Positions 1 through 64,000 of a stretch of DNA of 64,000 nucleotides are shown one piece after another. A program made the translations under genes and the position numbers. The first letter of the stretch is position 1; the number at the start of each line of letters is the position of its first letter. The notes beneath the pieces were generated by a model. That model was not told where the DNA came from. It did no database searches and saw only the letters and a list, made by a program, of their open reading frames with translations. Source of the DNA: Macrocystis pyrifera. Its lineage: Eukaryota > Sar > Phaeophyceae > Laminariales > Laminariaceae. The stretch spans positions 10,190,087 through 10,254,086 of the forward strand of contig JASSKH010000024.1 of NCBI GenBank assembly GCA_031763025.1. The letters run 5' to 3'.

Positions 1-655
1 GGCTATCTACACCCAAGCGTGTAGCTTATCGATAGCTCCACACAGGTCTGATATATACCGAAAGGTAGTGTCTGTGGAACTTACACGCTTTTAAACGACA
101 AAAGATACCGTTGACTGACGAAGCAAGCGCAGGCGTGCCAATGATATGTGGGCCATAGGGAATGCCAGGGACTGAGAGTAGGGCCGATGCGATGCGATTG
201 TGGGCGTGTAAAATGGTGCGTTTGGGGGTCCGGACGGTGGGGGTGGGAGAGCGAAGAAAAAATTGGCGAGGTAGGTAGAGGGAAGTGATCGGTTAAAGGG
301 TGCTTCATAAATCGTATACGGAGTACCAGGTAGGATTTTCATTAAAAAGCGCATACTTGCAGAGAGGTTGCTTCAAACGTCGTAGAGGAATATTGGTTCA
401 TTGGAGTAATCGATGTTTTTACCCAAGAGGAAAACCGAAGAGCGAACTCTTGAGAATTTGTTCGTGGTAGGCCTGTTCGTGCATCTACGACTTCATGGAT
501 TGCCCGTAGTCGTGCACACAACTGGTTCTTACAGTAGTACCAGGTACCGGATACGTAGACTCTGTTTAGAGATAGCCCTGTTATTCTTCTATTTTGTCGA
601 TCTACACTATTGATACGTACTCGTCTGACTCGTAGTCTCTATTAGCCGGAACGCT
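1..655. other. Intergenic, no gene seen
   Basis: I see no exon with coding character here. Short open frames on both strands look like chance. Two exact copies of the dispersed palindrome TACCWGGTA lie at 324-332 and 538-546. Confidence 0.5.
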
Positions 656-722
656 GTACGTGTAGCTCAGCGGGAACCCAACACTTTCCGGTTCTCTCTT
701 AGGTTCGATCCTCACCCCCTAT
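656..722 (+). repeat. tRNA-like remnant (A and B box)
   Basis: TAGCTCAGCGGG matches a pol III A box and AGGTTCGATCC a B box, about 40 bases apart as in a tRNA. The D stem and the acceptor stem do not pair, so this is not an intact tRNA gene. It could be a tRNA-derived SINE head or a tRNA pseudogene. It lies about 110 bases upstream of the TLC gene start. Confidence 0.3.
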
Positions 723-831
723 CCACCATGTTTTGGTGTTTGAATCATGACACATAATTCTAATCGATCAGACAAATTCATTGCGCCCAACCCCATCGGC
801 CAGGTGCCGGGAACAAAGGTTGGGCGGGGCT

Positions 832-1749
832 ATGAGCAACGAAGATGTGCTGTCGCTAAGGCGAGGATGGATACCAAGCGCCATCGCCCTAGGTCTATGC
901 TTTGTGCCCCTCAGTTCTGTCGGACTCGAAGCTTTCGATAAGGGATGGGCACGAGGATTGGCGACCTTCATCGCTTTGGAGGTGGTGCGGGTGGGGGCAG
1001 TGGTACTACTCCCTTACTGGTGGAGAGAGATAGCAGGCAGGACGGATTTGCTCACGGATAGGAGCCGCGAGCAGTTTGGGGGGCAGCTCACGTCGCTCCT
1101 GCTGTCCAGCTACCTGACTTGGAGTATCATTCGGTGGGACTGGCAGCTGACGACCAAGCTTCCTTTCATCCAGACGGTGGGGGAAGATCACACGGGCGTG
1201 GTTTTCAGCCTGATGGCGATGATGCTCGCATACATCGTGCACGACACCTGGCACCTGCTGAGGTCATGGCGAGTGAACCGCAACCGAGTGATGCTGATTC
1301 ACCATGCCGTATTTGCCGTGATCAGCATCATGGGGATGCGGTTCATGCAGCTTCCGATACACATGCGCATCCACTTCATCATGTTTTCGGCCGAAATGTC
1401 CACGCCGCTTCTAAACGGGCGCTGGCTTCTTCGTCACATCGGCTTAGTGCACAAGTCGCACATGGTCATGATCGTGATATCTTCCTCCTTTCTTGTGCTA
1501 TTCCTGGTGACGCGGATCCTCATGTATCTCTTTATGATACTCGACATCATCCAGCTGCATGCGGAGTTGATAATGCCGCTGCCGTTAAAGCCGTTGTTCC
1601 TTCTGGCGGTGGTCATCTCGTATGTCGTGAACCTGTATTGGGCGTCGCTCATTGTGGGTGCGTTGCTAGGGAAGGAGGGCGGGGGGAAGCGGAGGGGGGG
1701 ACCAACACTGACGGTGAATCACCCTGACACCCAGAAGAAGTTGGCTTGA
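832..1749 (+). CDS. TLC-domain multi-pass membrane protein (TLCD4/TMEM56-like)
   Basis: One uninterrupted frame of 305 residues from ATG 832 to TGA 1747-1749. The same frame stays open upstream to a TTG at 781, but 832 is the first ATG. About eight hydrophobic segments are visible, near residues 11-33, 41-62, 84-102, 122-140, 152-170, 178-190, 212-237 and 254-278. The TLC (TRAM/LAG1/CLN8) signature shows in order: YIVHDTWHLL at 134-143, the HH pair at 157-158 (LIHHAVFAV), AEMSTPLLNGRW at 187-198, TRILMYL at 227-233 and NLYW at 267-270. The E-x-STP-x-x-N-x-RW pattern points to the TLCD4/TMEM56 branch rather than ceramide synthase, and I see no ceramide synthase Lag motif. Such proteins sit in the ER or other endomembranes; their reaction is not settled. 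The tail is rich in Gly, Lys and Arg. An upstream non-coding or coding exon cannot be excluded. Confidence 0.85.
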   Translation: MSNEDVLSLRRGWIPSAIALGLCFVPLSSVGLEAFDKGWARGLATFIALEVVRVGAVVLLPYWWREIAGRTDLLTDRSREQFGGQLTSLLLSSYLTWSIIRWDWQLTTKLPFIQTVGEDHTGVVFSLMAMMLAYIVHDTWHLLRSWRVNRNRVMLIHHAVFAVISIMGMRFMQLPIHMRIHFIMFSAEMSTPLLNGRWLLRHIGLVHKSHMVMIVISSSFLVLFLVTRILMYLFMILDIIQLHAELIMPLPLKPLFLLAVVISYVVNLYWASLIVGALLGKEGGGKRRGGPTLTVNHPDTQKKLA

Positions 1750-4700
1750 CTTTAATTATCACGCACACGGAGTTTTTGGGTTTTTAAGGATTTGCACTAA
1801 AGCTTAGGGATTTACGCCAGAGTTTCCGGTAATCCTTTTTGTCGACATACCAGGTGCTACCGTGTTTGCCCGAACTGCATTGAGGGGGACAAAAAGAAAC
1901 CGGTGGGAGCCCCCTCCCCTGTGTACATACTCTGGAACTGCTGTAACCGTCGGTCTAGAGGAGGGTTGAGTAATTCTGGCGTAGATTAGCCGCCACAGGT
2001 TTTGAACTTACAATGTATTAATACGGGCCAGGGTATACTACAGTGCATGGAGTCGGTTCTTGTGTATCGGGCAGAATCGCGCGAGACTTGACGCGAAAAT
2101 TTCGATATTTCAGGGGCATGGTGTGCATGCACGAGATATACTACGGTACTGTCGAATAGTATTAAAGCAGAAGCTCTCATGCGCGTAGTGTAACGCTTGG
2201 TAGGCCTGTAACTCTACCCCTTGTGTGTTACCAGAAAAAAAACGCTGAGGTGCAGGATCTGGTTGGCTGTGCCCACCATCCCCCCGCCCCCTTTGTACGT
2301 ATGACATAGCCAAAGCGAATGTATTTGGATTAATTGGAGGAGTTAGATCGCTGCCTACTTTTATAGACTGCTGTGGCGTTGTCTGCACCAATACCTGCGT
2401 ACCGAAATGGTTCAGTGCACGTGTCGGCCTAGGATGGCCTCCACCAGGCGTTGCTTGTGCTTGATTCATGGGCTCGTCACATCCCTTCGCTTTTGCAACC
2501 CCTCCCTCGGGGTTTGGGTGCGCATTGCATTATTATTATGCTGGGAGAAGCTCCATATAGTCTACGAATCTCCGCACATTAGAGTGTTTGCGATTTTTTT
2601 TCTTCTTCTTTCACTTTCTCCAAAAATTCTCCCGAGGTAATTTGAAAAAAAAAACGGCCCAAAAGTACTTTAGCGAAGGCAGAATTTCATCAAAAGTTGC
2701 GGTAACTTTTGTCTCTCTGTTTCATTGGCCTACAAGCACCGAGCATTTTCCCAACGCAGAACGCATCTCAAAGGATCAAAACACGAGCGTCTTCCATCCC
2801 GCACCATGCTGCTTGCTGTACACATCACGACAACCGCTGGGAGCACAGAGGCTCGAGAGGTGTAGCTGGAGTATAGCGCGGACGACCGGCGTTGGATTGT
2901 GCCAGCGGGCCGCCGCCGCTGCTACGGTACACGCTTTCGCCATCTTGGTGACGACATGTAGGATGCGTCGTCTCTAAAAAAGGACTCGTGCTCATACCGC
3001 CTTGCTTGTACAGCGCGACAGCATACAGCTCGTGTATCATTTCGATTTCACCTTAAACTGCGGCAGCAGCAGCGAGCAGCGGCCGCGGTGGAGCGGAGCG
3101 CGCCGGCGATGTGGCCTGCGTAGGCCGAGCGCAACAGCAGCAGCAATCCCAAAGTGGAAGCTGGTTGGTGCTGGTGCTGACGCTGTTTATTTTTGTCGCT
3201 TAAACTGATGCTGCCTCTATTAATAGCAGCGGCTAGCGCTAGCTAGCTGCTGCTTGCAGTTGTGGGATGGCAGTGGTGGCACCGCGATCAATTCTGCCGC
3301 CGACACCGTTGCTGGGTTGCCGTTGCTACTCGCACACTGCTGTTTTGTTGTTTTTCGTTCTTTTTTTTGTTTGCCGCGTTGCCTCACCTCTCCACTTCCC
3401 TTCTTATTTTCGGAGGCGTCGCCTGCAGGATTTGGTTTACCTCACTTGAAAACACACCGAAATCAGGAAGGGAATGACATTCACTTTTTCTTCGGAAGTG
3501 AAGTTTTTTTTTTTTTTTTTACGTCTGTCGCAGACACTCTATTGATCGCGAACATCGCCTTTCATTTGCCACGTGCCTGGTACCAAATACCTGGTACCGG
3601 CTATGTCATACGTGTTTGGTGTTGCTGCCGTACAGCAGCAGGATAGTTGCCGCGAGCTCTCAACTACTCGCAGACGCCCCTGTCTCTAGACCAATATTAT
3701 CATGTGATGAAGCAGTGCACTCGCGTCAACTACAGCGGCACTCGAACTCGGCAGGAGAAGCTCATATTAATAATATTTGAGCGCGAGACCATTTCTTGCT
3801 TTTTGGCAAACAAGACCCTTCAGTGCGGGGTGCGCATAGGCTTCGATTTTATTTATTTTGTCTTCCCGATTGTCTATCTACTGTGTCGCCTACTTGGTAC
3901 ATACTTGCGACGAGAGGAATCGACGTACGGGCCGCTGTCCGCAGTTCTAAGGACCGTCTGTGAGTATTCAAATTATTATCAAAGCGGTCTTATGTTTCCC
4001 TCTGGAAATAAAAGGCTCAGATACCGGTATAATAGCAGTCAGTGGTGGTTACTATTAATACTGCCGTACCTGGTGCTACTACTGTAGCTGTATATACGAG
4101 GCATGCCATACTTGTATTATACCGCTGTACGCGTACCTGGTCACAACAACAGCAGCAGCAGTAGTAGCAGCGTACCGGTCCGCTCGTGCACATCCAATCT
4201 TGAAAATAGAACGTCTACGTAGGGAAAAGCAGGCCAACAACATCCATTGGCGCTGCAGTATGAGCAGCGGAAAGGTACGGATCATATCATACCACATACC
4301 ACCCATCTCATCATACAGAATCAGATGGTAAAAAATGCTCTACGAGTACGATATATTATTATTTCCCAGTCGGTGTCAAGTGCAAATGACAAAGTCAGAG
4401 TGTTGGCCTGCCGTCCTGCCGTCTGATTTCGCCAAGAAAGGAAAGAGGCTCGGCAATGTCGGCCGTATCAACGCAATCAGATATTATACCCAAACACCGC
4501 GACATCTATATACAAGAAGACACAAAGATGCCAGGTACTAAAAAAAGCTGTTGTTGCTGCTGCAGAGCGCAGAGAAATAATATCCTTTAATCCGTATGAG
4601 TAGATGATGCCACCTTGCCACATCCAACCTGGAGCACCCACCGATGGACGAACGGTCGGATAACAGGTACGTATAGTATTACTGTACATCACAGCAGGAG

Positions 4701-6700
4701 TAAGTACTCGTTGTACCGCGGTACTCGTAGCAGGGGGGTGACGCTGGATCAGATATCTGCCTGCTTCATCTTTTTTCAAATTTCGTGTGAAGACCCCCCA
4801 TTCAGAAAAAGCCGTTACACGGTTCATAACGCCCATAACCCACAAACACCAAAACTTTTCCCACATATGGCTTTTGGTCGCGAAATTCGAGTGCGTATAC
4901 ACACCAGAATATCGAGGTGGGGACGTGCCAACCGCTGGGTTGACGTCTAAAAGCCATGCAGTCAATGGGACTCATTCGACGAGGAATTTCTTCCACCAGG
5001 TAAGCTCAAAAGCTGACGTCAAACATCCCTGCTGACATATGTGTACTGGAACAGCAGTAGAAGTTACAGGAAAGTCCTGTGGTTGCGTCGCGTTATACAC
5101 AAGGGTTCACTCCTGTACTGCTACAGGCAGCTGTGCTGTAGAGGTGTGCCCGTCACAAACGGGTACTCGGATAATTCTGAAAGTGAAGCCCGAACCCGTC
5201 GCGGGAAGGTTTTGAGACGAAATCAGACGGGTGCAATGAGTACTCGGGTAACCCGAGTACTCGGACAACCCGCTTTCGTTCACTGTCATCGAGTGGTATC
5301 ACAAACGGAAGACAGCAAAGCATACCAGGTACGTACCAGGTACCAACTTTTTGATGTCGAAACAAGACCAGCAACCATCAAACAACAATAACAGCGCCCC
5401 ATACCGGGTCTTCAAGAATAAAAATCAAACTAGAAGTATACATACAGCAGTAGAAATAAGATACTGGCAAATGCAATCGGTCAGCCTCTTGCTGTCATGC
5501 GTCGTGCATGTTGTACATACATACCTAATACACACGTACTCGTACTTACCTGATACTGCACAGCTGCACAACACGAGTAAACGCACGTACCGATGTAGAG
5601 AGATGTCGTACCAGGTATGACACGAGTAGTGGCGTGCGGGGTATGTATGGTTGCGCACGAAGAAGCAGATACCCACACCTCTCTATGCCCCTGAACTGAG
5701 CATACACTCAGGTAGCGAAATACAGATTGACGTAACGTACACCATAGCAAGTAGGTGGCATTCCCAGGTCTCCATGGCGGGCAGGCGTCATGGCGCGAGT
5801 TGAAGAAATAAATACCTACGAGTATGCATTGGTAGTAAACGCCCAGGATACCGAAGATAGTAGCATAACAGGCACGCGTCTGAAAATAATCAGTGTGAAT
5901 CCCCTGTGAAAACCGTGCAGAAGGCATGGATGGGTATTCTGCTCTGAAAATTGGACAGTACCTCTGGGGCCTGGGGACCCCGTTTTGTGTCGATTTGAGA
6001 GGTTATTAGATATCGTGTTAGACAAACTAAACGGGGAACATGTCAAACATACGCGCAGCCGGGTACTCAAACCCGCCGAGTACCCGGGTTTTGTTCACCC
6101 CCCAAAACCCGCGGTTTCAAGTCAAACCGGGACCTGTCACGGGTTTTGCCCGTCCGGGTTGTGCCCACCGAGAAACGGGGTTTCGATCAACCGGGGTACA
6201 CCTCTGCTGTGGTGTACGGGTGTCTGCCCACAAGCCGCAACAGCGAGCAACAGCCGCGAAGTCGAGCACCAGTCTCTTATGTGATGTGTGATTGGAGCAC
6301 TACGCTCTAAACGTCCGTCGTCGCGGGCAACAGACATGGTGGAACCGACTGGTAGTGTGGTATGTGGTTGCCTGTGTATGCTAGATTTTTTGTGAGGGGA
6401 ATGAGGCACAGCAAGCGGCCAAAGGTTGCCCGCGACCCGACCACAGCTCGAGTGACCTGCAGGTCGTAGGGACAAGCGGGTTGTAAGAACGATCGACTGG
6501 TGACAAGCACAAACATGCCATCTGGTACATGCCGCTTGGCTCGGGATACGGCGTTTTCTCGCTCATCACATCGTCTGAAAGAAACGTGCGAATTTTTCGT
6601 TTTCCGGGGCCGCCGAACGTTTGTGCACAAAACAAAATCAGCATACCGGGTATGAAACGGAGGCATTTATTATAGTGAATGTATATACGTATACTACGGT
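1750..6700. other. Intergenic, repeat-rich; no supported gene
   Basis: About 5 kb without a convincing exon. It holds T-rich tracts near 2597 and 3505, CAG/CTG-rich stretches and a cluster of the TACCWGGTA palindrome (3588, 5323, 5334, 5609, plus one-mismatch copies). A 25-base perfect palindrome lies at 5238-5262, and a block near 6050-6190 is dense in CCCGGGT/ACCCGGG motifs. A minus-strand frame at 2110-2469 (119 residues from an ATG, rich in Pro, Gly and Gln) has mildly protein-like composition but no recognisable domain or splice support. Confidence 0.5.
5238..5262. repeat. 25-bp perfect palindrome (CCCGAGTACTC arms)
   Basis: Two 12-base arms, GAGTACTCGGGT and its exact complement, flank a single A. 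The surroundings repeat pieces of the arm (gggtactcgg at 5160, gagtactcgggtaac). The related ACCCG/CGGGT words recur near 6050-6190. Confidence 0.8.
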
Positions 6701-6825: not shown

Positions 6826-9800
6826 CATTGCGAACAAAATCTAACGCTTTCGCATGGCTTTCTGCAACTCGTCCGTACAGGGGACTGCGGGGAGAGGTGC
6901 GCAGCTCCGGTAGTATATTTGATCCGTACGTGTATCGAGGTAAGGGTAGTCCGGGGCTCCCGCCGATGATGACCCAGGACGGGCTGAAGACACGCTGGGG
7001 AATCGTGCGAGGTCATGTCAAGTCAGGAATGTGCGCAGGCGTCATTCAGGCAAGATACTAATCAGGAACAAAAATGCCTCCGACTACCGATATTGGAGGG
7101 TGCATGCGGTACATTGCTTCACTACGGTACTACTTACTGTAGTATATAAATATAATGTTTCCCCCTGTCCACCTGGTATGATGGACAGATGCGGTCGACG
7201 TGGGAACTTCAAAACGACTGATGAATGTCTCAAGTGCTACTAATTCCAATTATCCCCTTCGTGACTGTGTCCAACAGACGTATCTCCATTCCACTCCGAA
7301 GTCCCTGGTATAGATCGTGGCGGTGAACATGCGCAGACTTCTTCTGGAATCCACCTGTCCATGAGGTCTGCCACTTGACGTAACTGTCCTGAAAACACTG
7401 GTTCCCTGCAAAATTCTGGATCGCGAAAAAACCCAACCCCATCAGGGCATATCGATCATCAACCGGCGTCAAGGAAAGGATGTGTTATTTTCCTCCTTCA
7501 TTCGCCTCCTCCAAACCTCGCCGCCCCCGACCCGCTCTCGTCATGATACGCTAGCTGTCGCACAATCTGTTCAAGTGGATGAATCTCGAGGGGCGAGCTC
7601 CGTGCTCACCACGGGTCATTTTTACGCCGTTTTTGTTTCATATCTGAAAACAGCGTTGGGCCGTTGGCTAGCACGGGACTGTAGGTGCCGGTAAGTTGCT
7701 ACGTTCCTAGCTTGAACCTGACCCCCTAAACAGAATCAAGGGGGGGCGTACTCATTTTGTTGCTTGCCTTGTTCGTTTGACCATTGACCACGCATCCCCT
7801 CTCGAGACGGAGCAGAGTAGGGGGGGTGTACTCGATAGGAGAGATGTACTCGATCTCATGCATGGCCGTAGTCGTATGACCATAGACCCTCGCATCCCTA
7901 CAATGCCGGGACGGAGCATGTCGGGTTTTCACCGACCAGGCAGACATTGCTTGCACCAAGCGCGAAGCGCCGTGAGGTGTCCGGCGAGTCGCATGAAGGG
8001 TGAGCTGCATCCTACTAAGAACCGCTTGTGAGGCGGACTTGCATATGGATGACAGCTTCAATGAGTTAGTTTAATTTCCGGTGTGGCCACTTCCAGAGAC
8101 AGCAATGGGAGTACTATGTAACTGCCTCTTGGGTGCCGTACCTTGAACACTACGTGATACGATCAATTCCCTTGTGCAGAGTAAAGGTTCTTTACTTCGC
8201 ACAAATGATCTAACTAGATGACCAGCTGTGGGCGACCGCCAAAAAAAAAAAAAACGGTACCCTGGATGTCTAGCTCATGTAGTGAGCGGCATGTTTTACA
8301 GCGTCGTTGCCAACCGACGCCAACCCAACCCATATATATAGTAGGGGGGGGGTGTAATCATGACATGCATAGCTGACATGCATAGCCGTAGTCGTAGGAC
8401 CTTATACCCCCGCATCTCTATAATTCCGGGCTGGAGCATGTCACCGACCTGGGAGACATTGTTTGCACCAAGCGTGAAGCGCCGTGAGGTGTTCGGTGAG
8501 TCGCATGAAGGGTGGAGCTGCATACTACCAAAAACCGCTTCTGAGGCGTACTTTCTTGCATATGCATGGCAGCGTCGACTTAATTTTTTTGTGTTCTAGT
8601 GTGGCCACTTCTAGAGGCAGCGATGGGTGTACCAGGTACGATGTAACTACCTCGTGGGCGCTTACCATATACCAGTACCTGGTGCACAACACGTGATACA
8701 ATAATTCCCCTTGAGCGGAGCTTAGGTTCTCCACCCTGCACAAACTATCTAACTCGACCGCCAGCCGTGGTAACCGCCAAAGAAATAGAAGTAAAACGGT
8801 GCCCTGGTTGTCTAGCTCACGCAGTGGTTGACGTGGTTTACAGCGCCGTCGCCAACCGACAACCCAGCCTGTGTTGGTGCGTATCATACACACATATATG
8901 TATATATATGCGGGGGGGTGATCAAGTCGCCGATCGTTTTTGCGCATGTTGAGCGTGACCGGCCTTTGTTCATTGATTGTTGGAACTCAGGAGCCCGAAG
9001 GCGCCTCGCATTTCTGCATATATTAAACGGTGCGAGTGCAAGTGGGAAATCCGGCCCGATAGGAAAAGAAGCACAAGCCAAACCGACGTGTACAGCGAGA
9101 ACTATCTATACTAACCGCCAACCGCGATTCGGAAATACGTATGACCTCCGTTCTGCCGCTTGTCGCTGTCGTTCCGCCACCCCGCCCCGTACTCTAACCG
9201 TTTCGACTCGATCAGAAACACGTCCCGGACTTCCATGCGTCCAAGTTCCCTCCCGTGGCGAACAAGGTGTTCAAAGCTTTTATCGAGGCGCACCGAAAAG
9301 GGGACATGCACGCGCTTGCGGGGCTAACAACGGAGGAGCTCTATGCCTCCCTGAAGGTAGAGTTTAGCGTGTCGCCACCAGCATACTTTCCTCGCGTGCC
9401 AGATTCGAGTAGTATCGGCGCGGGTTGTGTACGAGACGGTTCTACCTCGAGAACAAGAGTCAGGACAGCCCTCTTTTTGGGATGCCACTACTGTAGCAGA
9501 AGACCGGGCGTGCTCCGCTCAGCCGGGTGACTACATGCTACATGCAGGCTTTTGTCCTTTGGAGAAGTTGCCACTCCACGCGTCGAAATGTTGAGGCGTA
9601 AGAGATTCAACATCTTTGCAGGCAGGAAGGGCGCCCGACCCTGAGCCTTTTTCGAAGCTTGAACGGCATCTCATACTCCATGCTCGACCCCTTTCGATGA
9701 CCTAGAAAGCCGGCTTGCGGGTCGGTAAACAAGAGTAGCAATACCAATGGATGCGAAGAGGGTAAGCTATCTCCCAAGTGTGGTGAGAGGGGAAAGTCCA

Positions 9801-13010: not shown

Positions 13011-13521
13011 ACCGTGAGATGGTTCCCAGTAGAAACTACCAAACGAGGACGTTATTACTTCGAGCGAACGCAGGTGGAGTAAACCTGCGTCCTAATACAA
13101 GGGCAAGAGTCTGCCTCCGCGATTTGCCTGCTGATTGCTGAGAGGTCGCCGACAAATCAACAACTAAGAAACTCGTCCATGACCGTGAGATGGTTCCCAG
13201 TAGAAACTACCAAACGAGGACGTTATTACTTTGAGCTAACGCAGGTGGAGTATAACTGCGTCCAAATACAAGGGCAAGAGTCTTCCTCCGCAATTTGCCT
13301 GCTAAAGCTGAGAGTTCGCCGACAAATCAACACCTCAGAAACTCGTCCATGACCGTGAGATGGTTCCCAGTAGAAACTACCAAACGAGGACGTTATTACT
13401 TCGAGCGAACGCAGGTGGAGTATAACTGCGTCCTAATACAAGGGCAAGAGTCTGCCTCCGCGATTTGCCTGCTGATTGCTGAAAGTTCGCCGACAAATCA
13501 ACACCTCAGAAACTCGTCCAT
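13011..13521 (+). repeat. Minisatellite, unit about 170 bp x 3, with internal hairpin
   Basis: Three near-identical units (13011-13181, 13182-13351, 13352-13521) begin ACCGTGAGATGGTTCCCAG and end AACTCGTCCATG. Each has ACGCAGGT, a 7-base loop, then ACCTGCGT (unit 1, perfect) or AACTGCGT (units 2 and 3, one mismatch), a potential hairpin. The high identity suggests recent amplification. Confidence 0.9.
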
Positions 13522-13539
13522 GATGCCCATTCATGCCAT

Positions 13540-14105: not shown

Positions 14106-15511
14106 TCAAAGGAGCCCACTGTGGTACCAGCAGCGATAGGCTCCGGTAGAGTAGCAGTCGGCATACTGGCAGTAGTTGTAGATCTCTACTCCGGTAGGCA
14201 GAGCGATGGCCTCCGACCCTAGCCGACATCCCACAGTAAGCCGTTTCAGGCTAGTCGGCCAAGCGATTCCAGCAAGAGAATGCTCATAGTTGCGGCTAGG
14301 ATAGAAGAGAAGCGTCAACTCTGCCAGAGCAGATGGCCAGCTCTTAACGCCCTGCAGCGAATGGTTAAACACGCATCCCAGGGTCAGGTACTGAAGGGAG
14401 GTCGGCCACACGACCTTGTCCACAGCTTGGTTGAAGCACGCGCCGAAAGTTAACTGCTGCAGCGAGGTAGGCCAAACAACCTTGTCGATGACCTGATTAA
14501 ATTCGAAACCGAACGCCAGGTATTCCAGGGAAGGAGGCCAAACGACTTCCTCAATAGGCCAGTCGAAGCATGCGCCGAACGTCAACCGTCGCAGCGAGTT
14601 TGGCCAGACCACTTTGCTAATGAGTTGGTCGAAGTAGTACCCGAACGTCAGCTGCTCCAGTCCGCCAGGCCACTTGACCTCATCTATCGGCTGGTTGAAA
14701 TGGCTCTTAAATGTCAGCCGGCGCAAAGACACTGGCCATACCGCCTTGTCAATGGGTTGGTCAAAGCAGTTCCCGAAGGTCAGCTGCTGGAGCGAGGAAG
14801 GCCACACAACCTTGTTTATGGGTTGGTTAAACGCGACGCCGAACGTCAGCCGTTTCAACGGCGGGGGGCGCTTCATGTTCTCGATCTCCTGGTTGAAGCC
14901 TCCCACAAACGCTGCATACTGCTGAGCGGTTGGCTTCAATAAGTTGGCTACAGGCTTGTTGAACAGGTGTCCGAACGTGAGCTGCTGCAGAGAGCGAGGC
15001 CAGGCCACTCCGTCAATAGCTTGGTTGAAACTCCAGCCGAAAGTCAGCTCCCGTAGGGATTCTGACCACGATATCCCATGCACGGGCTGGTCAAAACGAT
15101 GCCCGAACACCAGCCGCTCCAGCGTCTTCGGGAAAACCAACGCGTGCACTCCATCGTTGTTGAACTCACGACCGAAAATAAACCACTTCAATCCCTTCAC
15201 AAGCTCATAGTTCTCGAACAGATCTTGCGGCAGAGTCGGCAGTTCCCATGTGACTACACGTGCTCGCAGCGCGGGCACCCGTGCAACAGCGGCTTGCTGC
15301 CGTCCCGGGGGGTCGTCCTCCGCCTCGGCAGCAGCCCAGATACGGCGTGGCGTATCAGTCTTGATCTGGATATGCCACGAAGCCACATCGCGGCAAACGA
15401 CACAGAATTGGAACGACGCCAACTGCAGGTTCTTCGTAGAGTCAAACCACATTTGGCCCCTGCAGGCCTCGTTGAGCGCGACGGTGAAGGCATCTAAGCA
15501 CAGCCCGCGGC
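14106..15511 (-). CDS. FNIP-repeat protein (3' exon, partial 5')
   Basis: One long exon on the minus strand, stop TGA at 14106-14108. The frame stays open to 15566 but has no ATG after the upstream in-frame TAG. A strong 3' splice site (ctgatttcttgttcag) ends at 15512, so the exon probably starts at 15511 and one or more 5' exons are missing. About 105 non-repeat residues are followed by 13 or so copies of a 22-residue unit with the pattern L..LTFG..FNQPID.VVWP.S, the FNIP/IP22 type of leucine-rich repeat. Units near residues 160-200 are degenerate (AAFVGGFNQEIENMKRPPP), and the last two are irregular. FNIP repeats form curved LRR-like solenoids and often sit with F-boxes in amoebae, algae and giant viruses. 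I see no F-box in this exon. The role is probably protein binding, possibly as a ubiquitin-ligase adaptor. Opposite-strand open frames here mirror the repeat. Confidence 0.85.
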
Positions 15512-15599
15512 CTGAACAAGAAATCAGCAAGAGGCGACGCGGAAGTGGCTCATCATGATTGAGAACGTGTCGCTAGTGATGTACGAATAGTTGGCGGTG

Positions 15600-17801: not shown

Positions 17802-18599
17802 GTGAGTGCCCCCTTACGATACCTTCGGAAAAAAAAAAATGGGTGTGTCATCTTGATTGTAGGATACGGTATTCATTGACAAGCAGTGAAGATTCTGACC
17901 CTACGCGCGATATTTGAAGCCAGGTACCGGCGGGAGGGTGGAAGACACCTGCGACCACACTTTGTCCAGAAGGCAGCTAAGAGTAAAACCTCTCACGAGT
18001 TTAGCTGGAAAGTTAAAATGTTTACTAAAGCAAAAATGTTTAGGAATTGTAGGAAGCATGCGATATAAACATGTCACTCAGCTTGCAAAAATTGTGGATC
18101 GATCCGTTGGGTCGAGAACTCACAGTCGGGGTCCTAATAACACATCGAAAAAACTAAATCAATGGTGTTGGCCAATTAATATGGTACATCTGGTACAAGG
18201 TATCGGTACATGTTATTATCAATACGATATCTACGCTTAGTGCTGAATTCAAGGAGCTGTAATAGTGTACCAGGTATTGTATTTGAGCAGACCTGGAACT
18301 GCTATCATCAATACTGCAGTAGATCTCATCTATCCTTGGTGCTATATCCAAGAGTTTATTTAGTGTATTGGTATTATGCGAGTCAAGCAGAAGCCGTATA
18401 CATTTGTGACGCCGTTCGCAGCCAGCAGCAATCGAATACCGTACTTGACGCATCCTGATCTGGACGACTTCCTCGAGAGCGCTCGCTGACCAAATTTTCC
18501 CGCGGCGAGGTGGATCTAGTTCACCGGCAACCAATTTGGCAGGTCCCGATACTGTCGTGGCATCAAGGTCTTCAACCACGAGGCCAGGACGCGAAACCA

Positions 18600-33716: not shown

Positions 33717-34177
33717 CCGGCACTGCTTGTATATGTATGTTCTCACATCCCGAGATAGCGACAAAAACACTAAATACAACGATAAATTTATTGTAGCGTT
33801 ATCATGTGTCCACGAGAAGCGTGAGGGCTCAGAAGTACGAGTAGGAACATATAGTGCCCGTGGTGTACCAATCCTTGCATCGTAACTTGGGAACCAATAT
33901 AAATATACCAGGTATATTATAATATATCATCCTCCAATTATGAAGCGACCGTCGCTAAATCGTCACGTCTCATCGCCAATGTTCCGCTCTGAATTCCCAA
34001 GAGGGCCACAATGGAGTCTGTCGTCGCAGGACAGGCTCCGGCTCCAATAAATGATAACTGAACTCTGGAGTTGAACATCAATTTATTTGTTCAGCCTCCG
34101 AGAAAGGAAAAGTAGAAAACAACACAAGTACCTGGTACCACACACATACTGCTGTCTTGCCACCAGGTAATAACTAT

Positions 34178-36494: not shown

Positions 36495-36925
36495 TCACGG
36501 GAGTCCAGTTAATGGGACCAAAAAATTGTTAGTAAAAATAGGTAAATATGTGAGATGGGTGTATCTCAGGTTCGACCTGGGTCTGCAGCAAGCTTCTCTT
36601 TCGGTAAGGTATAGCGTGGAGGACACGCCAGGTATAGGTGAGGCTCGGCACGGTCAGCCGAGCAGAAGTGATCATGAAACATGACGCAAGTCATTTCACA
36701 TGACAGTCATCAGCAATTACTTGGTGATGGAGGCTGGTAATTCCCCCGCCTCAACTATCATCAGATCTACGGAGATCTGCGGCCACTTTTAGTACAAGAG
36801 TCAATATCCACGATAACGGATGAACCACTGACTGCTGTAGAGTAACGACCTGAGACTCTCAAATATATAGGTTTTTATGTACACCATAGGTCCTACCAGG
36901 TACTAACTACTATGGACCTCCGTTA
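36495..36925 (-). mobile_element. MITE family A, inverted copy split by a 0.3-kb insertion
   Basis: The left side (36495-36550) carries the right half of the MITE in inverted orientation, ACGGGAGTCC..GGGACC then TTGTTAGTAAAAATAGG. The right side (36866-36925) carries the left half, ATATATAGGTTTTTATGT, CCATAGGTCCTA and ACTATGGACCTCCGTTA. Between them lie about 310 unrelated bases that include AGGTTCGACCTG, a B-box-like word. The right terminus also contains an inserted CCAGGTAC. Confidence 0.7.
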
Positions 36926-44091: not shown

Positions 44092-44583
44092 TTCATATTG
44101 TCCCCCCTCCCTAGTCGTGCGTTCTTTTACTCAAGGGGTTTACTCCACGTTCGACTTTCTGGTCGAGTGTTCTTTTATCGTGGTTCTCTCCACTTGATTT
44201 CTCTTTTTCTACCCACGACAGAAAAAGCGGAAATACGACGTCTGGCGGGACTCGAACCCCGGACTTCTTTTGTTCGAAATATAAACGATAAACCACTGAG
44301 CTACTAAGTAGTGTTCGAAATATAATTGATAAACCACTGAGCTGCTCAGTGGTTTATCCTTTATATCTACTGAGTAGCTCAGTGGTTTATCGTTTATATT
44401 TCGAACAAAAGAAGTCCGGGGTTCGAGTCCCGCCAGACGTCGTATTTCCGCTTCTTCTGTCGTGGGTAGAAAAAGAGAAATCAAGTGGAGAGAACCACGA
44501 TAAAAGAACACCCGACCAGAAAGTCGAAAGTGGAGTAAACCCCTTGAGTAAAAGAACGCACGACTAGGGAGGGGGGACAATAT
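44092..44583. mobile_element. Head-to-head pair of tRNA-derived SINE units (near-perfect inverted repeat)
   Basis: The arms 44092-44305 and 44370-44583 are complementary with only about four mismatches. Each unit runs outward as A box TAGCTCAGTGG, B box GGTTCGAGTCC (44375-44385 and 44420-44430 on plus; 44293-44303 and 44248-44258 on minus), then CGCCAGACGTCG and a 140-base tail ending GGACAATATG. The A-to-B spacing fits a tRNA, but the acceptor and anticodon stems do not pair. The spacer between the units contains two further A-box-like pieces (CCACTGAGCTGCTCAGTGG, itself a palindrome). Degenerate heads flank the pair at 43980-44010 and 44603-44640. Confidence 0.8.
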
Positions 44584-47436: not shown

Positions 47437-47639
47437 AACCGACTATTACGGGGGTCCATAGTTAATAGGACCTATGGTATACATAAAAACCTACATATTT
47501 ACCTGTTTTTAATGAGGCGCGCGAAGCGCGCAAAAAGCGGGCGAGCCTTTTTTTTCTTGGAATTTTCCAAGAAAAAAAAAAAGCCTCTTCATAGCGGCTC
47601 GGATACGAGCGTGGGGTGCCTTGTTTTGAGTTTTTCTGT

Positions 47640-47688
47640 ATGTGTGTGTGTGTGTGTGTGTGGCTGGGTGTGTGTGTGTGTGTGTGAT
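47640..47688 (+). repeat. GT dinucleotide repeat
   Basis: Two runs of (GT)n separated by GGCTGG. Confidence 0.95.
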
Positions 47689-48109
47689 TCAACATTTTTT
47701 TGGGCAACGTTTGACCACCGCCCTCGACGCACACCGCACCAATTCCAGTCCCGGCGGGCTCTGTGGACGCGCACACACAAAAGAGACCTCCTGGTGCTGG
47801 TGCGGTGGTAAGTCGTTCACAGTAGCTCGAGCTAGGTGTGGCAACGTGTGTAGGCACATGTTGGTGCTGGGCCATGTTGAAAAAACACAGAACCAACAAC
47901 ACATTATATTTTGAAACCCAGCTAGGTAGGCAGACTGTGCCTGTCCACAGCGACGAGCGTTCGGGCCATGTCCCCGAGACATGCTGCAGGCCCACCCTCC
48001 TGGTGATGAGGGGACTGAGAAGCAGGAGAGTATCTGCTGTATAATAGTTGTTGTACAGCAGTAGTAGTAGTGGTAGCACTGGTGGCACTGCTAGAAGAAG
48101 CTCTGCACG

Positions 48110-49075
48110 TCAGATTGTAGATTTTTCGTCTTCAACTATGAGTTCGGGACCAGGAAACACATGTACGAAGGGTTCACACACAAGCCGAGCGTACAGCGAC
48201 GCTGACCTGGCCTCGTGTGTCCTACTGCTGCTGCTGTTTTGCTGCTGGAGAAGCTCTGCTGTAGATGTCGTACATCATCAGTAGTAGCACCTGCTACCTG
48301 CTACGAGAAGTTCTCTCTTGGACAGAGCAGGTCGAGTGCAGATTTTTCGTCTTGAAATTATTATGCCGAATTTCGAGTTCAAAACCAACACAGGACAAAA
48401 TCGAGTACGTGTACAAAGGGTTCAAGGGTTTAGATTGACAAGCCGAGCGTACAGCGACGCTGACCCTGGCGTCGTGTGTCCTACTGCTATACTGCTGCTG
48501 CTGTTTTGTTGCTGGAGAAACACTGCTGCTGCTGTAGATGTGTACAAAGGGTTCAAGGGTTAGATTGACAAGCCGAGCCGCCGAGCGTACAGCGACGCTG
48601 ACCCTGGCCTCGTGCGGCCCACTACTACTGCTGCTGCTGCTGTTTTTGTTGCTGGAGAAACCCTGCTGCTGTATGTAGATGTCGTACATACATCAGTACA
48701 AGCAAGTAGTGGTGGCGAGAAAGAAGCGCCTTCTGTTGGACAAATATTTTCAGATGCAGATTTTTCGTGTTCAAATTAATTATGCCGAATTTCAACCAGA
48801 AAACACTTACTTGCTGTTGGAAAGACAGAAAAAGAAAAAATATGTATCAGGTGTGTGTCTATTTGTCGTCTTGTTCTTTCCACCCGTCGACATCCAGCAC
48901 AACCAGTCAGTGTCGGTGCCGATTCCTGAATTCCCGAGAGATACGATATGAATACAAGTAATAACTTCTGTGGTCACACAGCAGTAGTACATATTTTTCG
49001 TCTTCAAATTATTATGCCGGATTTCGAGGTGGAAATACCAGGATACACACGACAAAATCCAGTACCTGGTATTTG
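48110..49075 (+). repeat. Diverged tandem repeats with CTGCTG tracts
   Basis: Unit type 1 (ACAAAGGGTTCAAGGGTT, AAGCCGAGCGTACAGCGACG, a CTG tract, TTGCTGGAGAAA) occurs near 48155-48275, 48412-48545 and 48541-48685. Unit type 2 (CAGATTTTTCGTCTTCAAAT, TATGCCGAATTTCGAG, GACAAAATC) occurs near 48116, 48338, 48756 and 48990. The two types alternate. Confidence 0.7.
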
Positions 49076-49380
49076 TTACAGGTGTGTCCGTACTGCTGTG
49101 CTGTCTGTGTTTTTCAAGAGCAGGATATGATGCCAAGAATGTTTACGGTTATGAGAGTCACCAACGACGGCGTATAGGTAGTAGGTACAGCAGCAGTAGA
49201 TGTTCGTTCGTGTTGGTTCAGGACAAATGTTTTGCATGATGCATCGCAGATATGACTACTTCAGGTATTGCTGAGGTCGCGCCTCATTACCACCAATTAC
49301 TAGTACTAACAATATTCGGTCCTATTTACTATGGTCCCCCGTAATAATACCAATACTAATAGTCAGAATCTTCACCAACC

Positions 49381-50278: not shown

Positions 50279-50793
50279 ATAATATTTTTTTTCTGGTACA
50301 GCAGTGAGTGTTCCGTGCGCCCAGCTCCTGCGGGGACACCGACCCGTACGTATTTGCTCTAGATATTCACAACCATTTGAGAGTGGCCGGGGCTCTCGTG
50401 TGAGCCAACCATAGTATGTATGATACCAGGTATGATTACTGATTACCGTGCATATCTATAGTAACATGGATGCGTGTTACCGGTCTCGATTCGCGAGCGG
50501 TTCGATAATCCATGTGATACAATGTGCGGTTTTCGGAAAAAGTGCGGTTCTAGAAGGTGTGGAAATCTATTGGTGGAAACAGCCCCTTTAGATAGAAGCG
50601 CCCCACATACGTTGGAAACCCCCCTTTGTACGTATTTTCGAAACGGGGTGATGGCGATCCACCCCGTACATACCGTAACGTTTAGCCGTAGAGGTGCTTC
50701 AGTGCGGTTCTCACAATTGCTCATTTTGAGGTACCAGTATCACCGATAGGTTCGCACTCTACATGGGCTACAGCAGTATGAGGGTGAACCCAT

Positions 50794-50871
50794 GAGGGAA
50801 AGTGAATAAAAAATCGTACCAGGGGGTGGTACGAGGGAAAGTGAATAAAAAATCGTACCAGGGGGTGGTAC
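50794..50871 (+). repeat. 39-bp exact tandem duplication
   Basis: GAGGGAAAGTGAATAAAAAA followed by TCGTACCAGGGGGTGGTAC occurs twice in a row without change. The GTACCA..TGGTAC part can fold back. Confidence 0.95.
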
Positions 50872-51193
50872 GATAGTAGGTCCGTATGAAAAGTGTTCGG
50901 TGCAAGCCAGAACCGTCAATTACTCAGACTCCAGGTCTCCGGACGTTGAACTTCACCTCCACAAACACGTCAAGCGGCCGGAGCATTTTCCCTATTTCGA
51001 TACTTCGTATAATGGTACTCGTATGAATATCAAGTCTAAAGAAATGGTACATGCCAGCAGTTTGTTGGCATGTTGGTATTAATTGTGCGGTGGGTTGATG
51101 TCATTGCTGTTGTTGTTGCCTTTGCTGTTATTGCTGTTCTACCACGAGTAATATCACTGCTGTTGTTCCACGATATACCACTCTGTACCATCT

Positions 51194-52449: not shown

Positions 52450-52557
52450 ACAAATGGCAGCAGTAGTAGTAGTAGCAGTAGTAGTAGTAGTAGTAGTAGC
52501 AGTAGTAGCAGTAGTAGCAGTAGTAGCAGTAGTAGCAGTAGTAGCAGTAGCAGTAGC
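52450..52557 (+). repeat. Interrupted AGT/AGC trinucleotide repeat
   Basis: AGT units interspersed with AGC at roughly regular steps lead into the pure tract. Confidence 0.95.
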
Positions 52558-52915
<358 letters not shown>

Positions 52916-53199
52916 TTAATAGTATACTTGCTGCACGTATACGTACCCCAGGTAAAAAAGCAGTGCTAGGTGCAAGGTATAATATGCACGTACAGATCTT
53001 GTGGGTAAAGCTAACTCCCCCCCCCTGTTCTTCTGCTCCCCAGGCAAGGACTACAGGAATTGCGTGCTAATAATAAGTACCACTACGACGTACAAGTTGA
53101 CACTTACTAATAGTAGTGAGGGACACGGAAGACACATACGAACGGTATAATACGTGGGCGAGATAGCGTGGGGAGCCGGAGAGTCACTTCTTACTGTAC

Positions 53200-57985: not shown

Positions 57986-57999
57986 CGACTTTACTGAGA

Positions 58000-60900
58000 A
58001 GTCCACACCGGACCACGGCACACAATGGAATAACGTGTAGCAGGGATTCCGACGTCCCAACGAGCTCCTCAATGTCGTGGGTGCGAGGGGTTCGTCCAGT
58101 CCTGAACTGCAGTACACAAACGGATAATCCAGGTGTCTTAACTGTATACTTCGATGAATTTCAAGCTTCGACAATGATTTTCATGAGATATTGTCACCCA
58201 GGGTAGTATAGTCTCCGACCTACATCCCTCGCGAGGCCATACACCCCGTAACATTCGAGCTTGAAACATCACACGCAGCTCGTCAAAATGATTTTACACT
58301 ACATTTCCGATCTCACAGCTGAGGTGTCATAAGAATTTTTCTTTGATAAAAATATCAACCGCTCATGTACGACCCCACGAGGTAGCCTAAGTGACCTGGA
58401 AAATTTGGACTGTTGATAGCGACTCAGGTTACGAAGTGGTGCTCCTTTTATCACGTCGGCTCCTTCGAGATTTGGATCTCCTCGGGTGTAACTTTCCCCT
58501 GGCGATGTTCGGGGACGACGTGTATATATGAATAGGGGCACGCAACGGGACGAGGATTTTTTGTTTTGTTTTTTTCAGGGCGTACTGCATGTATTTCGTG
58601 TTTCGGCATGACCTACGAGTACTGTGTGTGATTGCTCGGTCTGATGAGAGAGAGGTACTGCAATAAAGAGGTGGAACAACCGATATCTCCAAGAGCCATT
58701 TGCAGCAAGAGTGAAGGAGAACAGAGTAGAGAGTTGTAATCATGCCGATTAGTCTATCAGGTCGAGCTCGCGCCTCCATCTTCGTTGTAGAGCTTGCAGG
58801 ACCACGCTTTGTGATCCAGCCTTCGTAAATGTACTCCCTCTTGTCTGAGATGGAGATCCAAAGAGCTTTAGGATCAAGTGTGCACCCCTCGTTAGCCTGA
58901 TAAAAACCAGACAGTGTTGCACTCGACGGTCATATTTCAGCCATTGCAGATGAATGCATATGGTGTGTTTGTCGTATACCAGGTATACATACATATATCA
59001 CGTACATCACGAAGAACAGAGGAGGTCACACACAAAAGGCCTGCACGATATGTAGCAAATACATCAAGACTTGAGCATCAAGAACCCGAGTATCAGGCCT
59101 GGGCTGGATCTCTGCTGATCTGCCACACATACATAGAGGGAGCATACTATCGTCACCAAGCATTGTTTACACAACAACAGCTTGCGAGTTCGTTGCGTAC
59201 GAAAACTGTCAGATTTCAATTTTGGAAGACAACTACGTAGACACTATCAATAAACGTACCTACAGTTAGTAATAAGTACGACAACCAAAACTACGTGAGG
59301 CTACATCCTGGGTTACTGTATAAAATAAGTAGTACCACGCGCGATTCAAGATGCAGAGATCGTTACATAAGGTGCGCCAAATAAGGCCTGCTTTATTTGC
59401 GCCTTAACCCCCGGAGTTCAGGTGAGACAGCGGAGGCTTGACAGAGACATCGTCTGTAAAAAATAGTTGATTGAGCGAGCTACGGTATGTTCCCCGTGCA
59501 AGTTGAAGCGTGACGGCTTTCAAGACGAAACAAAAAAAATGTCCCGTCACGCCGCTACAACACTACAACGTTACGATCGACAGCCGTCAACTTCTAGGAA
59601 ATTGTGCCGAAATGAGTCGCGAACTGCAACGAGTTTAGGCGCGACATATTTAGAATGCGTCGGAGGTCGGAGAAAGTACTCACTACATACATACGCAATA
59701 CGTGCAATCGATCAAGAAAAACAAAAGCGGAGAAATCGGGAGAAACCTAGAAACAAAATGGTAAAAGAAAATTTAAATAGCAATTAAGTTAACATTTGAA
59801 GTGTTTGTACAAAAACGCAAGGGCGCGCCCCACACGCGCTACAAAAAATGTTCGAAGCCTGAACCTCGAGTATCGCGGTGGACGACAAAACTGCATGCAA
59901 AAACATACCTGGTACAAGAACAGGGTATACGTCTAGACTATAGAGCTATCCATATGCTACGTGTACGGTTTCACGATCACTACGAGTACATGTACCGGGT
60001 GCATCCTTCTAGACGCAAAGCATAGATCAATCATCGATCAATCAACAAAAAAAACGTGACTGCGATTACAGGACCAGGGTTTCCCACGTAGCATGCATAC
60101 CGTGGAGGTCTCGAGCCGCAACAAATAAAATCAGCTGGCCGCTCCAAGCAAAAAACAAAACTGTTGCTCAACAAGTCGTCACCGGAAAGAAAATAACACG
60201 ACACGCACATCTCGGTATATCGAAGCTACATACTGTGGTAAACAACCTGTGCCAGATATTACTAGTTTTCTGAGGAACTGGATTATGAATACAACTAGGA
60301 CAAAAAATACGACTCTCCCCCGTATCAACAGCCTCCCGTGAGGAAACGAAACAGTGCGGACCTTGCCTTTCACACAAGCAAAGAGTGCGTACGATGTGTC
60401 TCGCGCAGTAGAAGCAGTCAACAAGTGAGGGGGGCCTCCGAAGCCCACATCCCTTTCGGCACCAGCAAGAAGAGCGTCGAAGCGAGCTACATCAACACGA
60501 CAGCAACAACAAACTCGAACGCTACACAAATAAAGCTGGAAAGGCAGGCACACCACCCCTTTCTGGGGGCGGGAGGTACGTATGCCTCCGCAAAGACAAA
60601 GAGCAAAACATGCAAAGTCATTAACATGCACAAAACGAAAAAAATGCAAAAAGAGATAGACGAGAAAAAAACGCATGCAATGCCTGGTCCGCAGACTGCC
60701 TGTCTACGTCATCTACGGGCTGAACTACTTCCCGAGCCTCATCGTGTGCTCAAGCAAGCAAGCGAAATCTACTGTTCCGTGAAGCAATCACTCACGTACC
60801 CCAAATCCTTACCGAAAAAATGTGGTTGTAGAAACCACCTTACGGAGTCTCCTTTACAGGCCCACTACACATTATCATCGTATGTGTGGAGTTTGCCTCC

Positions 60901-61700: not shown

Positions 61701-61780
61701 GGGCAAGTTTCGACTCAAGTACACGTACCAACCCTTCGTGCTGTTGAATAACAGTCGCCGCAAAGGATGTCTGACGCACC

Positions 61781-63207
61781 TTAAGCGGCAACGTCGTAAA
61801 CCGAGTGAACCTCGCTCGCCGCGCCCTTGAGCGAGTCGAGGAAGGATAAGGACAAGATCCCCTGAGTGTAGTCAAAATCCTTTAGCTGCACGACCTGGAG
61901 GTAGGCATTTTCGCCTCCTCGGAAAACTGCCGCGAAGTGAGTGGGCGCCTGAGGGTTAGCGGTAAGGACAGACAACAGGCGCGGGGACAACAGCATCGGC
62001 CGGAGGTAAGGTCGTGCATTCGAGAGGATGCGCCGATCGCCGTCGCTTTTAAGGGCGAAAAAATGTCGGTTAGGGTTGGGAAGGATAGACTGCATACAGC
62101 GCGCATTGCGCGATTGGGCGTGCATGCGACTGCTGATCTTTCGACGTCGAGTGTCGTAAAAGCCTCGTCAGGTTTGCGATGTATACATACAAACATTTTG
62201 AAGTTTTTGCCGCAAAAGCCTCATCAAGGCGTGAGTGCTTATTTATATGCAGAGAGGCTAGCGGACCCCGGCTGGCTCAACGCAAGCTTACCGTCGGCCT
62301 TCGGAAGTACTTGTCTGTTCCGGGCGAGCCAGTCCCCTTAAAGTCGTAGACCGTGGTGAACAACATGTCGTCGTATTTATTCCCGATCACAGCCTCCACG
62401 ATATCAAACTCCCCGCAGCCCCCGTTGCCGCCCATGCCTCGGCAGTTGCACCCGTACTGCGCAGTGCGTAACACCTGCAACACAGAGTAAAAGATATCAC
62501 GGGTGAAGTTGCAAAAAAAACATCGTCAAAGCCCGCGTTTGATTCGAACACTGCTGTCGAGTAGGTATTCGTCTTCGAGCGTTGTTGGATTTTAATAGTT
62601 TTTTACAAGCGAAGCGCGTTGCTAATTTACACGGCAGTCTAAAATGTAGGGAATGCCTCAATGCTTTACTTTTCACCTGGGTCAAGCCGGAGGCGCTACG
62701 GAAGGCCTAAAGCTGGAGGTCCGTACCGTCCGACCGAACATCTCTGTTTTTATTTTTATTTTTTTCTTGTACGCTCCACCAGCGCACAGAGTTGACGGCA
62801 ACTACGCACACACATCCACCAGAGCGAGTTTCTGGCGAAAGCTACGAACCCTCTTTCCTATCTACCTTGTTTCATACCATGATTTAGTTTTAGCTCGCTG
62901 GACTGAAGACGGCGGATGAAAAAAAAGAGGCTTTCCTAATTTCCAGGCGAGCGCTACGTACTCTCTAATGTACCTGGTACGTTGTTTCATGCAGTGATTT
63001 TAGTTATAGATCGCTGGACGGTAAGACGGCGAACGGAACAAATACGCCTCGCTCACCTTATCGTTGAGGGCCCAGACGGCGGGCCTGTTGTGGGTGCACT
63101 CACTGAAGCCCTCGGTGCCACAATGCGGCATGTCCGCTTCGAACACCATCACTTTCGTGCCTTCCCCGTCGCCCTTCCAGCCTTCCATCCCCGTGTTGCG
63201 GTAAAAT
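61781..63207 (-). CDS. GH16/TOS1-like cell-wall glycosidase (3' part, at least three exons)
   Basis: Minus-strand exons 63207-63057, 62474-62292 and 61948-61781 join in phase (one base, then 0, 0). Signals: acceptor tcatcctcgcag; donor AAG|GTGAGC; acceptor ttttactctgtgttgcag; donor ACG|GTAAGC; acceptor cgctaaccctcag. Stop is TAA at 61781-61783. Exon a reads YRNTGMEGWKGDGEGTKVMV, FEADMPHCGT and RPAVWALNDK. Exon b reads CNCRGMGGNGGCGEFDIVEA, FTTVYDFKGTGSPGTDKYFR and RP. Exon c reads THFAAVFRGGENAYLQVVQL, KDFDYTQGILSLSFLDSLKG. GEFDIVE fits the E-x-D-x-x-E catalytic signature of GH16 beta-glucanases. The Cys-rich CGEFD, MP.. nP-A-W-x-LN and YFxRPT order matches my memory of the TOS1-like (PF10287) family of fungal and oomycete wall proteins. 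It probably acts outside the cell on beta-glucan. The N-terminal exons and signal peptide are missing, likely beyond or near the window edge. Confidence 0.65.
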
Positions 63208-63299
63208 CTGCGAGGATGAAGCGAGTGCACCACCGACCACATAAACCATATTACGTGAGTTTCTGTCCGAAAAACGGAATTTCTCTCGGCCAAGGTGAA

Positions 63300-64000
63300 G
63301 GTTGTTTTCTTGGCCAAAACCGCCTCCTCTTTCAGTAAGCCTCATATACCATATACTTCTATAAGAACATACCTGGTACAAGTTACGTACTTCTTGTGTT
63401 GTGCTTTTTACTAGATCGTACTTATCAGGTACGACTCCATGTGTAGCTACTAATAGCTACCTACGTACCAGTTATTGTGTTGCAGTACTACTGTGTAATA
63501 TCGTACCATCACTTGGGTTGGTTTGTCTCCGATGGCGGGGTTTTTTAGTACCTGCGATTATTTTAAGGTACAAAAAAGCTTTGTTAGCTCCGACCGTACA
63601 AAGAAGCCAGACTATACACTAAACGATTACGCGCTTCGCACATTATCGTTCCCGGTACGCCCAGCTGTAACGGGGGAGGTGTAGAAGATGTGAAGCATTG
63701 TATACCCAGTAGATCCGGCTGGGCAACGCCATCCCGAAAAAAGTGCATCGCGTCACGAAGCCAGGATGGCAACACAACTTGCATCAAAGGCGTCTGGAGA
63801 CAGCACTGTCACCCCTGGACATGGCAGCAAATTTCCCTTCATTGCCTAGACATCAAATTGAACCAAGCGGTCCTTATAATTACGCCCGAGTGGTAGGTTT
63901 GAGTGTGGAACACTCGGCCCTACAACCTTGACAGTGCACGTGTTTTCCCGTTAGACAGATGGACCGACAGATCTCCTGGCGTACAACTCTTGGTATTCAT
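63300..64000. other. Upstream of the glycosidase exons; no further exon assigned
   Basis: Contains TACCWGGTA at 63370, GTACGTA-type words and copy 2 of the 40-bp dispersed repeat (63908-63950). A minus frame at 63584-63787 follows a gcccag acceptor-like site but does not resemble the expected N-terminal part. Confidence 0.35.
63908..63950 (+). repeat. Dispersed 40-bp repeat, copy 2
   Basis: GGAACACTCGGCCCTACA then ACCTTGACAGTGCACGTG, matching 25609-25650. Confidence 0.7.

Follow-up and report, generated by a model that had tools for sequence, protein, structure and literature searches.

Transposons of the Tc1/mariner type, such as Sleeping Beauty, Tc1, Mos1, and Minos, duplicate a TA dinucleotide on insertion and, after a staggered cut, leave behind a short filler derived from the element ends; the Minos footprint is CGAG, and the centre of the Sleeping Beauty footprint can be A or T through a mismatch. 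In one account of these enzymes, the non-transferred strand is cut a few bases inside the element, producing 3' tails whose end joining leaves a footprint, which for Sleeping Beauty is CAG (PMC8151067). Stowaway sites in grasses are described as carrying TA plus 1–4 bp end fragments from one or both ends, with several footprints per orthologous site, insertions beside old footprints, and scars that can add fragments from both ends, as in TACTCC...AGTA (PMC1925063). The footprints of Passer, a pogo-like element, are given as 0 to 4 bp (PMC9976928), and hAT elements (Ac/Ds) are reported to leave palindromic scars after excision, the palindromes being made from flanking DNA (PMC4561436). In a finished genome, past excisions can seldom be seen. 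Here, we describe the 9-bp palindrome TACCWGGTA in a 64-kb stretch of the giant kelp Macrocystis pyrifera (C205:10190087-10254086 of the assembly; hereafter the window), and propose that it is very probably the excision footprint TA-CCWGG-TA of a TA-targeting, TA-duplicating cut-and-paste DNA transposon that works like those of Tc1/mariner type.

That the motif is an insertion of 7 bp (TA-CCWGG-TA) follows from one repeat, in which a single TA occurs empty, with an A centre, with a T centre, with CCAG, and doubled, and in which further TAs are filled in some copies. The part of this repeat at 8480-8800 served as a query and gave 3925 first-look candidates in the genome; 39 stretches were fetched for 40 other listed places, and 38 of them, together with the window, make up a family alignment of 39 rows (L031, which holds two tandem copies, was omitted). 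At site 1 (ACCATA/TACACACTACGTGA), states coded by eye were 13 empty, 5 CCAGG, 6 CCTGG, 3 CCAG, 3 CCAGA or CCAGT, 5 double, and 4 other, a filled fraction that is not an unbiased frequency, given that these copies scored highest against a query that itself bears scars. When compared pairwise with the empty copy L042, four copies (L025, L034, L055, and L056) have exactly TACCTGG and three (L026, L030, and L043) exactly TACCAGG beside the TA of site 1, and L037 bears TACCTGG at a different TA; further TAs of the repeat are filled in L028, L035, L037, L049, L053, and the window. The filler and one TA are therefore absent as a unit from the empty site. TACCWGGTA is its own reverse complement except at the centre, so that A and T can be told apart meaningfully only where the flanks fix the orientation; at this oriented site, the palindromic filler has had its centre settled either way. 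By a script rule, 26 of the 101 insertions of 3–20 bp in the family alignment have the form TA-X-TA, a count that omits some footprints which the pairwise method aligned differently.

A genome sample of 246,586 bases (the window and 19 other stretches, with L001-L004 excluded from sample counts) holds 50 exact copies, only five of which sit in repeats that could be aligned by self-comparison; at least one relative lacks the motif in three of those. At 8630 the window is filled and the 7 bp are missing from all four paralogous alignments, and at 36894 both sample paralogues lack the motif, the gaps around the TA amounting to 10 bp; in a second paralogue family tried for this latter copy, the motif lies outside all 39 other genome matches. 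These data bear on the idea of an ancestral motif that belonged to a single repeat family, or to a few, and was spread by their copying, which would suit the size of the candidate family above, with the motif at favoured sites, and its position within a TATATA stretch in 9 of 39 rows (one in a neighbouring unit). We regard this explanation as extremely unlikely, given how few sample copies lie in detectable repeats and that a single site shows the empty state as well as either centre, without clustering on the (poorly resolved) tree. There, the site-1 states require 19 changes, compared to a shuffled mean of 20.3 (as low in 48 of 200 shuffles), on a tree with one starred inner branch among 36; such unclustered states are what independent events would give.

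In the window, whose guanine-plus-cytosine content is 50.1%, TACCWGGTA occurs exactly 19 times, compared to 0.41 expected from 100 dinucleotide shuffles (largest count 2) and 0.67 (0.34 + 0.33) from an order-3 Markov model. The first-pass annotation, which had reported at least 19 copies against a chance expectation of about 0.5, was right about number and excess; of its positions, five lie 2 bases low (true starts 33906, 49063, 50424, 58977, and 62971), and one lies 1 base high (true start 21172). The enrichment also holds in the genome-wide count that it had proposed as a check, with 121,279 copies in the whole assembly (537,376,219 bases in 223 contigs) compared to 2,421 of the reversed control pattern. 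With C or G at the centre, TACCSGGTA is found 12,109 times genome-wide (control, 2,024), giving a W:S centre ratio of approximately 10:1. Copies with one mismatch, previously put at nearly as many as the exact ones, number 36 in the window on recount, about twice the exact ones; in the sample there are 95 compared to 47 expected, alongside the 50 exact copies. This excess of decayed copies suggests a mixed, partly old set of scars and, at roughly one surplus decayed copy per intact copy, the true number of scars probably lies above the exact count. The features are listed below in window coordinates; all come from the motif scan and carry no strand, except where stated.

324-332: TACCAGGTA, read as footprint TA-CCAGG-TA
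538-546: TACCAGGTA, footprint-like
3588-3596: TACCTGGTA, footprint-like
5323-5331: TACCAGGTA, first of the close pair TACCAGGTACGTACCAGGTA
5334-5342: TACCAGGTA, second of the close pair TACCAGGTACGTACCAGGTA, with TA-CG-TA between the two
5609-5617: TACCAGGTA, footprint-like
7820-8800, plus strand: copies of the repeat family that supplied the empty/filled comparison; 8480-8800 was the genome query (self-comparison)
8630-8638: TACCAGGTA; 7 bp missing here in four paralogous alignments (motif scan and self-comparison)
8670-8684: degenerate double footprint TA-CCAG-TA-CCTGG-TG at site 1 of the family (family alignment)
18268-18276: TACCAGGTA, footprint-like
21172-21180: TACCTGGTA, footprint-like
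22032-22040: TACCTGGTA, footprint-like
33906-33914: TACCAGGTA, footprint-like
34129-34137: TACCTGGTA, footprint-like
36894-36902: TACCAGGTA; absent from both sample paralogues, with gaps totalling 10 bp around the TA (motif scan and self-comparison)
49063-49071: TACCTGGTA, footprint-like
50424-50432: TACCAGGTA, footprint-like
58977-58985: TACCAGGTA, footprint-like
59906-59914: TACCTGGTA, footprint-like
62971-62979: TACCTGGTA, footprint-like
63370-63378: TACCTGGTA, footprint-like

The flanks of the 50 sample copies are mutually unrelated apart from a target-like RTAY context, which is present at 38 of the 50 compared to approximately 36% of all TAs. The extension to GTACCWGGTAC that had been called frequent is seen in 5 of 19 window copies and 9 of 50 sample copies, and R...Y describes the flanks better. 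A context profile was built from 40 non-overlapping sites (the 10 overlapping copies were omitted) by deleting the scar to recover the former target; with both sides pooled, a purine precedes the TA on 71 of 80 sides, A stands at -6 on 39 of 80 sides compared to 20 expected, and A/T preferences appear 6 and 7 bases out. These base preferences are those of a symmetric A/T-rich TA target context, the symmetry itself being imposed by the pooling. The palindromic form with its R...Y extension, and the very large number of copies, could also be taken as signs of a protein-binding palindrome, one of the readings offered by the first-pass annotation; such a palindrome (a regulatory site, insulator, or recombination hotspot) would be kept by selection or made by biased conversion. 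This is very unlikely in our judgement: in repeats, copies appear as TA-duplicating insertions of 7 bp, whose empty, A, T, CCAG, and double states share a site, no flank conservation extends beyond the TA target context, and several unrelated TA-X-TA words are likewise enriched or seen as insertions. With the flanks free and the centre switching between A and T at the same site, nothing observed calls for a binding site.

Scars also occur in series. Two scars sharing one TA (TACCWGGTACCWGGTA) are found 5,620 times genome-wide, compared to 0 for the reversed control. Among the first 50 listed doubles, which are on small contigs, A-then-T accounts for 22, T-then-A for 1, and AA or TT for 27, 10 of these 27 lying on C45 and C65 and perhaps being duplicated; the five overlapping pairs of the sample comprise two A-then-T and three AA or TT. 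The 7-bp period of the doubles and the share of AA and TT among them would fit the templated insertion of a tiny unit, or a short tandem process, in which polymerase or slippage adds TACCAGG at a TA with no transposon involved, and the failure to find a source element in the sampled loci points the same way. This process is nonetheless unlikely to be the explanation, as 40 of the 50 sample copies lie outside overlapping pairs, neither slippage nor a one-way template produces A-then-T palindromic doubles, the insertions sit at TAs with a symmetric transposase-like context, and the TA-X-TA word TATTAATA shares its target context with a resident transposable element (see below). The earlier suggestion of a tiny mobile or templated repeat, made without linking the form to any known transposon element, keeps its link to mobility, in that an exact 7-bp insertion at TA comes and goes in related repeats, whereas what moves is not the word itself; likewise, the suggested fold-back repair process was apt in pointing to break repair, although the motif is best explained as the remnant after a larger cut-and-paste element leaves. 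The CCAG that adjoins a full scar in L032 and the window fits two separate events. For the motif pairs spaced by approximately 400 bp on C1, no repeat was found to join the two copies (L001 and L003 inspected).

In the footprint mechanism that we propose, the element would insert at a TA, preferably RTAY in a symmetric A/T-rich context, and duplicate it. On exit, the transposase would cut inside the element on one strand, so that each flank keeps a single-stranded tail of a few bases from the element end (CC..., probably 5'-CCAGG); joining would then pair the tails through their outer C and G, with the central A facing A (or T facing T), and the mismatch would be settled as A or T. The TA of the scar would be a target again, and serial scars would result. 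Alternatively, the same product would arise from three-base tails (CCA or CCT) with a one-base overlap, and either tail length may be the right one. We infer that the filler comes from the element ends and that tails of such a length were involved. The A-then-T excess among doubles would follow from a left end CCAGG, or from re-insertion favouring the TA after CCAGG; the count of doubles fits either.

Set beside the systems described above, the kelp motif resembles Tc1/mariner footprints in the duplicated TA and in a short filler that would derive from element ends after a staggered cut, and differs from them in its 5-bp filler CCWGG, in its six-figure number of exact copies in one genome, and in a source that was not found. 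Stowaway differs in that its element is known in grasses, while none was found for the kelp motif, and in the thousands of serial scars in kelp. The pogo-like Passer differs in that no ends were found around the kelp DDE_1 genes that were read (see below) and in that the kelp filler is one base longer than the longest Passer footprint. A hAT origin was set aside, as the kelp filler is constant and the flanks are unrelated, and so was PIF/Harbinger, with its 3-bp duplication and mostly precise excision, as the kelp arrangement is a 2-bp TA with a 5-bp filler.

Other TA-X-TA words are in excess in the sample as well, with 49 TTAA compared to 4.8 expected, 41 CGAG+CTCG compared to 11.3, and 80 CAG+CTG compared to 41, and with CG also enriched; insertions relative to empty paralogues were seen for TATTAA (two places) and TACAG (one). 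A resident miniature inverted-repeat transposable element (MITE) of approximately 105 bp, with ends TTACGGGGG, a TA outside, and often a C before that TA, is exemplified by L021:1501-1609, L015:2536-2645, and L010:2027-2135. Of 31 occurrences of its end TTACGGGGG, 26 follow a TA, which in 16 cases is part of CTA, and TATTAATA has C-G flanks in 14 of 49 copies compared to 3.3% of TAs. Thus, the same target context is found here for a TA-flanked MITE and for a TA-X-TA word, making the MITE a possible source of the TTAA filler and a partial control for the reading of CCWGG; MITE and scar were never caught at the same site, and the link consists of target context and end letters only. Three words are not taken as scars: GGWCC (TAGGACCTA), enriched but apparently an internal part of the TTACGGGGG MITE, CAGCAG, which may be partly microsatellite, and CG, which sits in TACG runs. 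In the window, an insertion of approximately 1.8 kb at 47511-49297 is absent from the relatives in L010 and L008 and, read by eye, has ends ATGAGGCGCG and its inverse, with TA outside on both sides.

Several results weigh against the footprint reading. No convincing TA-flanked inverted repeat starting with CCWGG, CCA, or CCT was found in the sampled loci, and paired half-site searches revealed no element at site 1 among exact-flank matches. No DDE_3 matches were found in the genome, and none for Transposase_1, a model that was silent in control genomes too, so that its absence is not shown. DDE_1 has 39 matches, and around the four loci that were read no terminal inverted repeats turned up. 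An end-polarity test on 4-base scars (TACCAGTA, 42,728 genome-wide; TACCTGTA, 23,377) gave a ratio of 1.83 compared to 1.56 from a sample Markov model, which is a weak test. The filler is also longer than the CAG given for Sleeping Beauty (PMC8151067) and the 0–4 bp given for Passer (PMC9976928). Not every copy shows an empty paralogue, either: the motif at L021:8750 is clearly missing in only one of three relatives, that at L007:2446 is present in its near-copy too, and L023:2066 is ambiguous. Finally, the preponderance of A-then-T over T-then-A means that the doubles are no random mix, and simple independent re-insertion would need a target bias or a two-ended join in addition to account for them.

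Candidates for the source were examined and rejected individually. Two CCWGG pairs (L023 and L021) match at 15 of 24 bases and were taken as chance; a near-perfect pair with a CCGGG start lies inside a larger hairpin of L014 and is not convincing as an element; and three CCT-start pairs (L010 and the window) look like inner parts of the TTACGGGGG MITE. Neither large gaps between paralogues (63 groups, read by eye) nor common 12-mers after TACC yielded a convincing source element. The repeated start TACCTGATTTTGGC was dropped, as the element of L006 and L023 in which it falls seemed, by eye, to have a 9-bp duplication. This element (L006:2569-3425 and L023:6881-7900) contains many GCCAAAATCAGG copies in both orientations, and the 9-bp target duplication was seen by eye in L006. 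Of seven listed left half-sites read by eye, six continue into the same repeat and one into other sequence; in the latter, L070, the repeat copy ends right after TACCTGG and is followed by different, coding-looking sequence.

Pogo-like elements target TA, and DDE_1 is a domain typical of their transposases. Around a DDE_1 transposase-like gene, the two chromosomes C194 and C202 agree at 99.7% over the entire 13.5 kb read (L074+L072+L075 compared to L076+L073+L077), a large duplication of at least that length in which no ends are visible because the identity spans the whole stretch. Genes similar to this transposase-like gene occur on many small contigs. A missing element need not contradict the scar reading, since scars add up with each jump while copy number does not; 100,000 scars would be possible from few copies over a long time, and we infer that the source has a low copy number or is extinct. 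As to class, the motif works like a Tc1/mariner footprint, full membership depending on one defining feature, the source element. A further reading is that the cutting enzyme may be a domesticated host transposase.

Elsewhere in the window, five long frames were scanned and three have Pfam support (TLC-domain, FNIP-repeat, and reverse transcriptase). The motif had been described as absent from recognised exons; these frames contain none of the 19 copies, although at only 3,585 bases in total they are too little to be informative. A 488-codon open frame with FNIP repeats (E 8.6e-49) lies on the minus strand at 14106-15572, and a 171-bp unit occurs in three tandem copies with 93% matches at 13011-13523. 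The window further holds an AGT triplet array of 463 bp (52462-52924), a near-perfect inverted repeat spanning approximately 490 bp with nested exact or near-exact arm pairs (44096-44582), and a perfect tandem duplication of a 39-bp unit ending in GTACCAGGGGGTGGTAC (50794-50873).

That cut-and-paste transposons leave footprints is well known; what looks unusual here is the scale, the regularity of the 5-bp filler, and the occurrence of scars in series. In the open PMC literature, searched in titles and the starts of abstracts, no description of scars at such scale or in serial form was found, and the word matched only ACCWGGT. If the copies are scars, a simple k-mer count would give the number of past excisions of each transposon family, its target choice, and the outcomes of repair, even after the element has been lost. 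The wider proposal, which we advance tentatively and with somewhat less than even confidence, is that the giant kelp genome may hold the fossil record of a single lineage of TA-targeting transposons, once very active and by now rare or extinct, with a regular 5-base scar, well over 100,000 readable scars, often several at one TA, and intact copies too rare to appear in the sampled sequence. If the words are scars, a set of over-represented kelp palindromes that might pass for regulatory motifs would also be explained, the rate of cut-and-paste transposition over evolutionary time would be readable from one genome, and repair preferences would become testable on thousands of natural outcomes.

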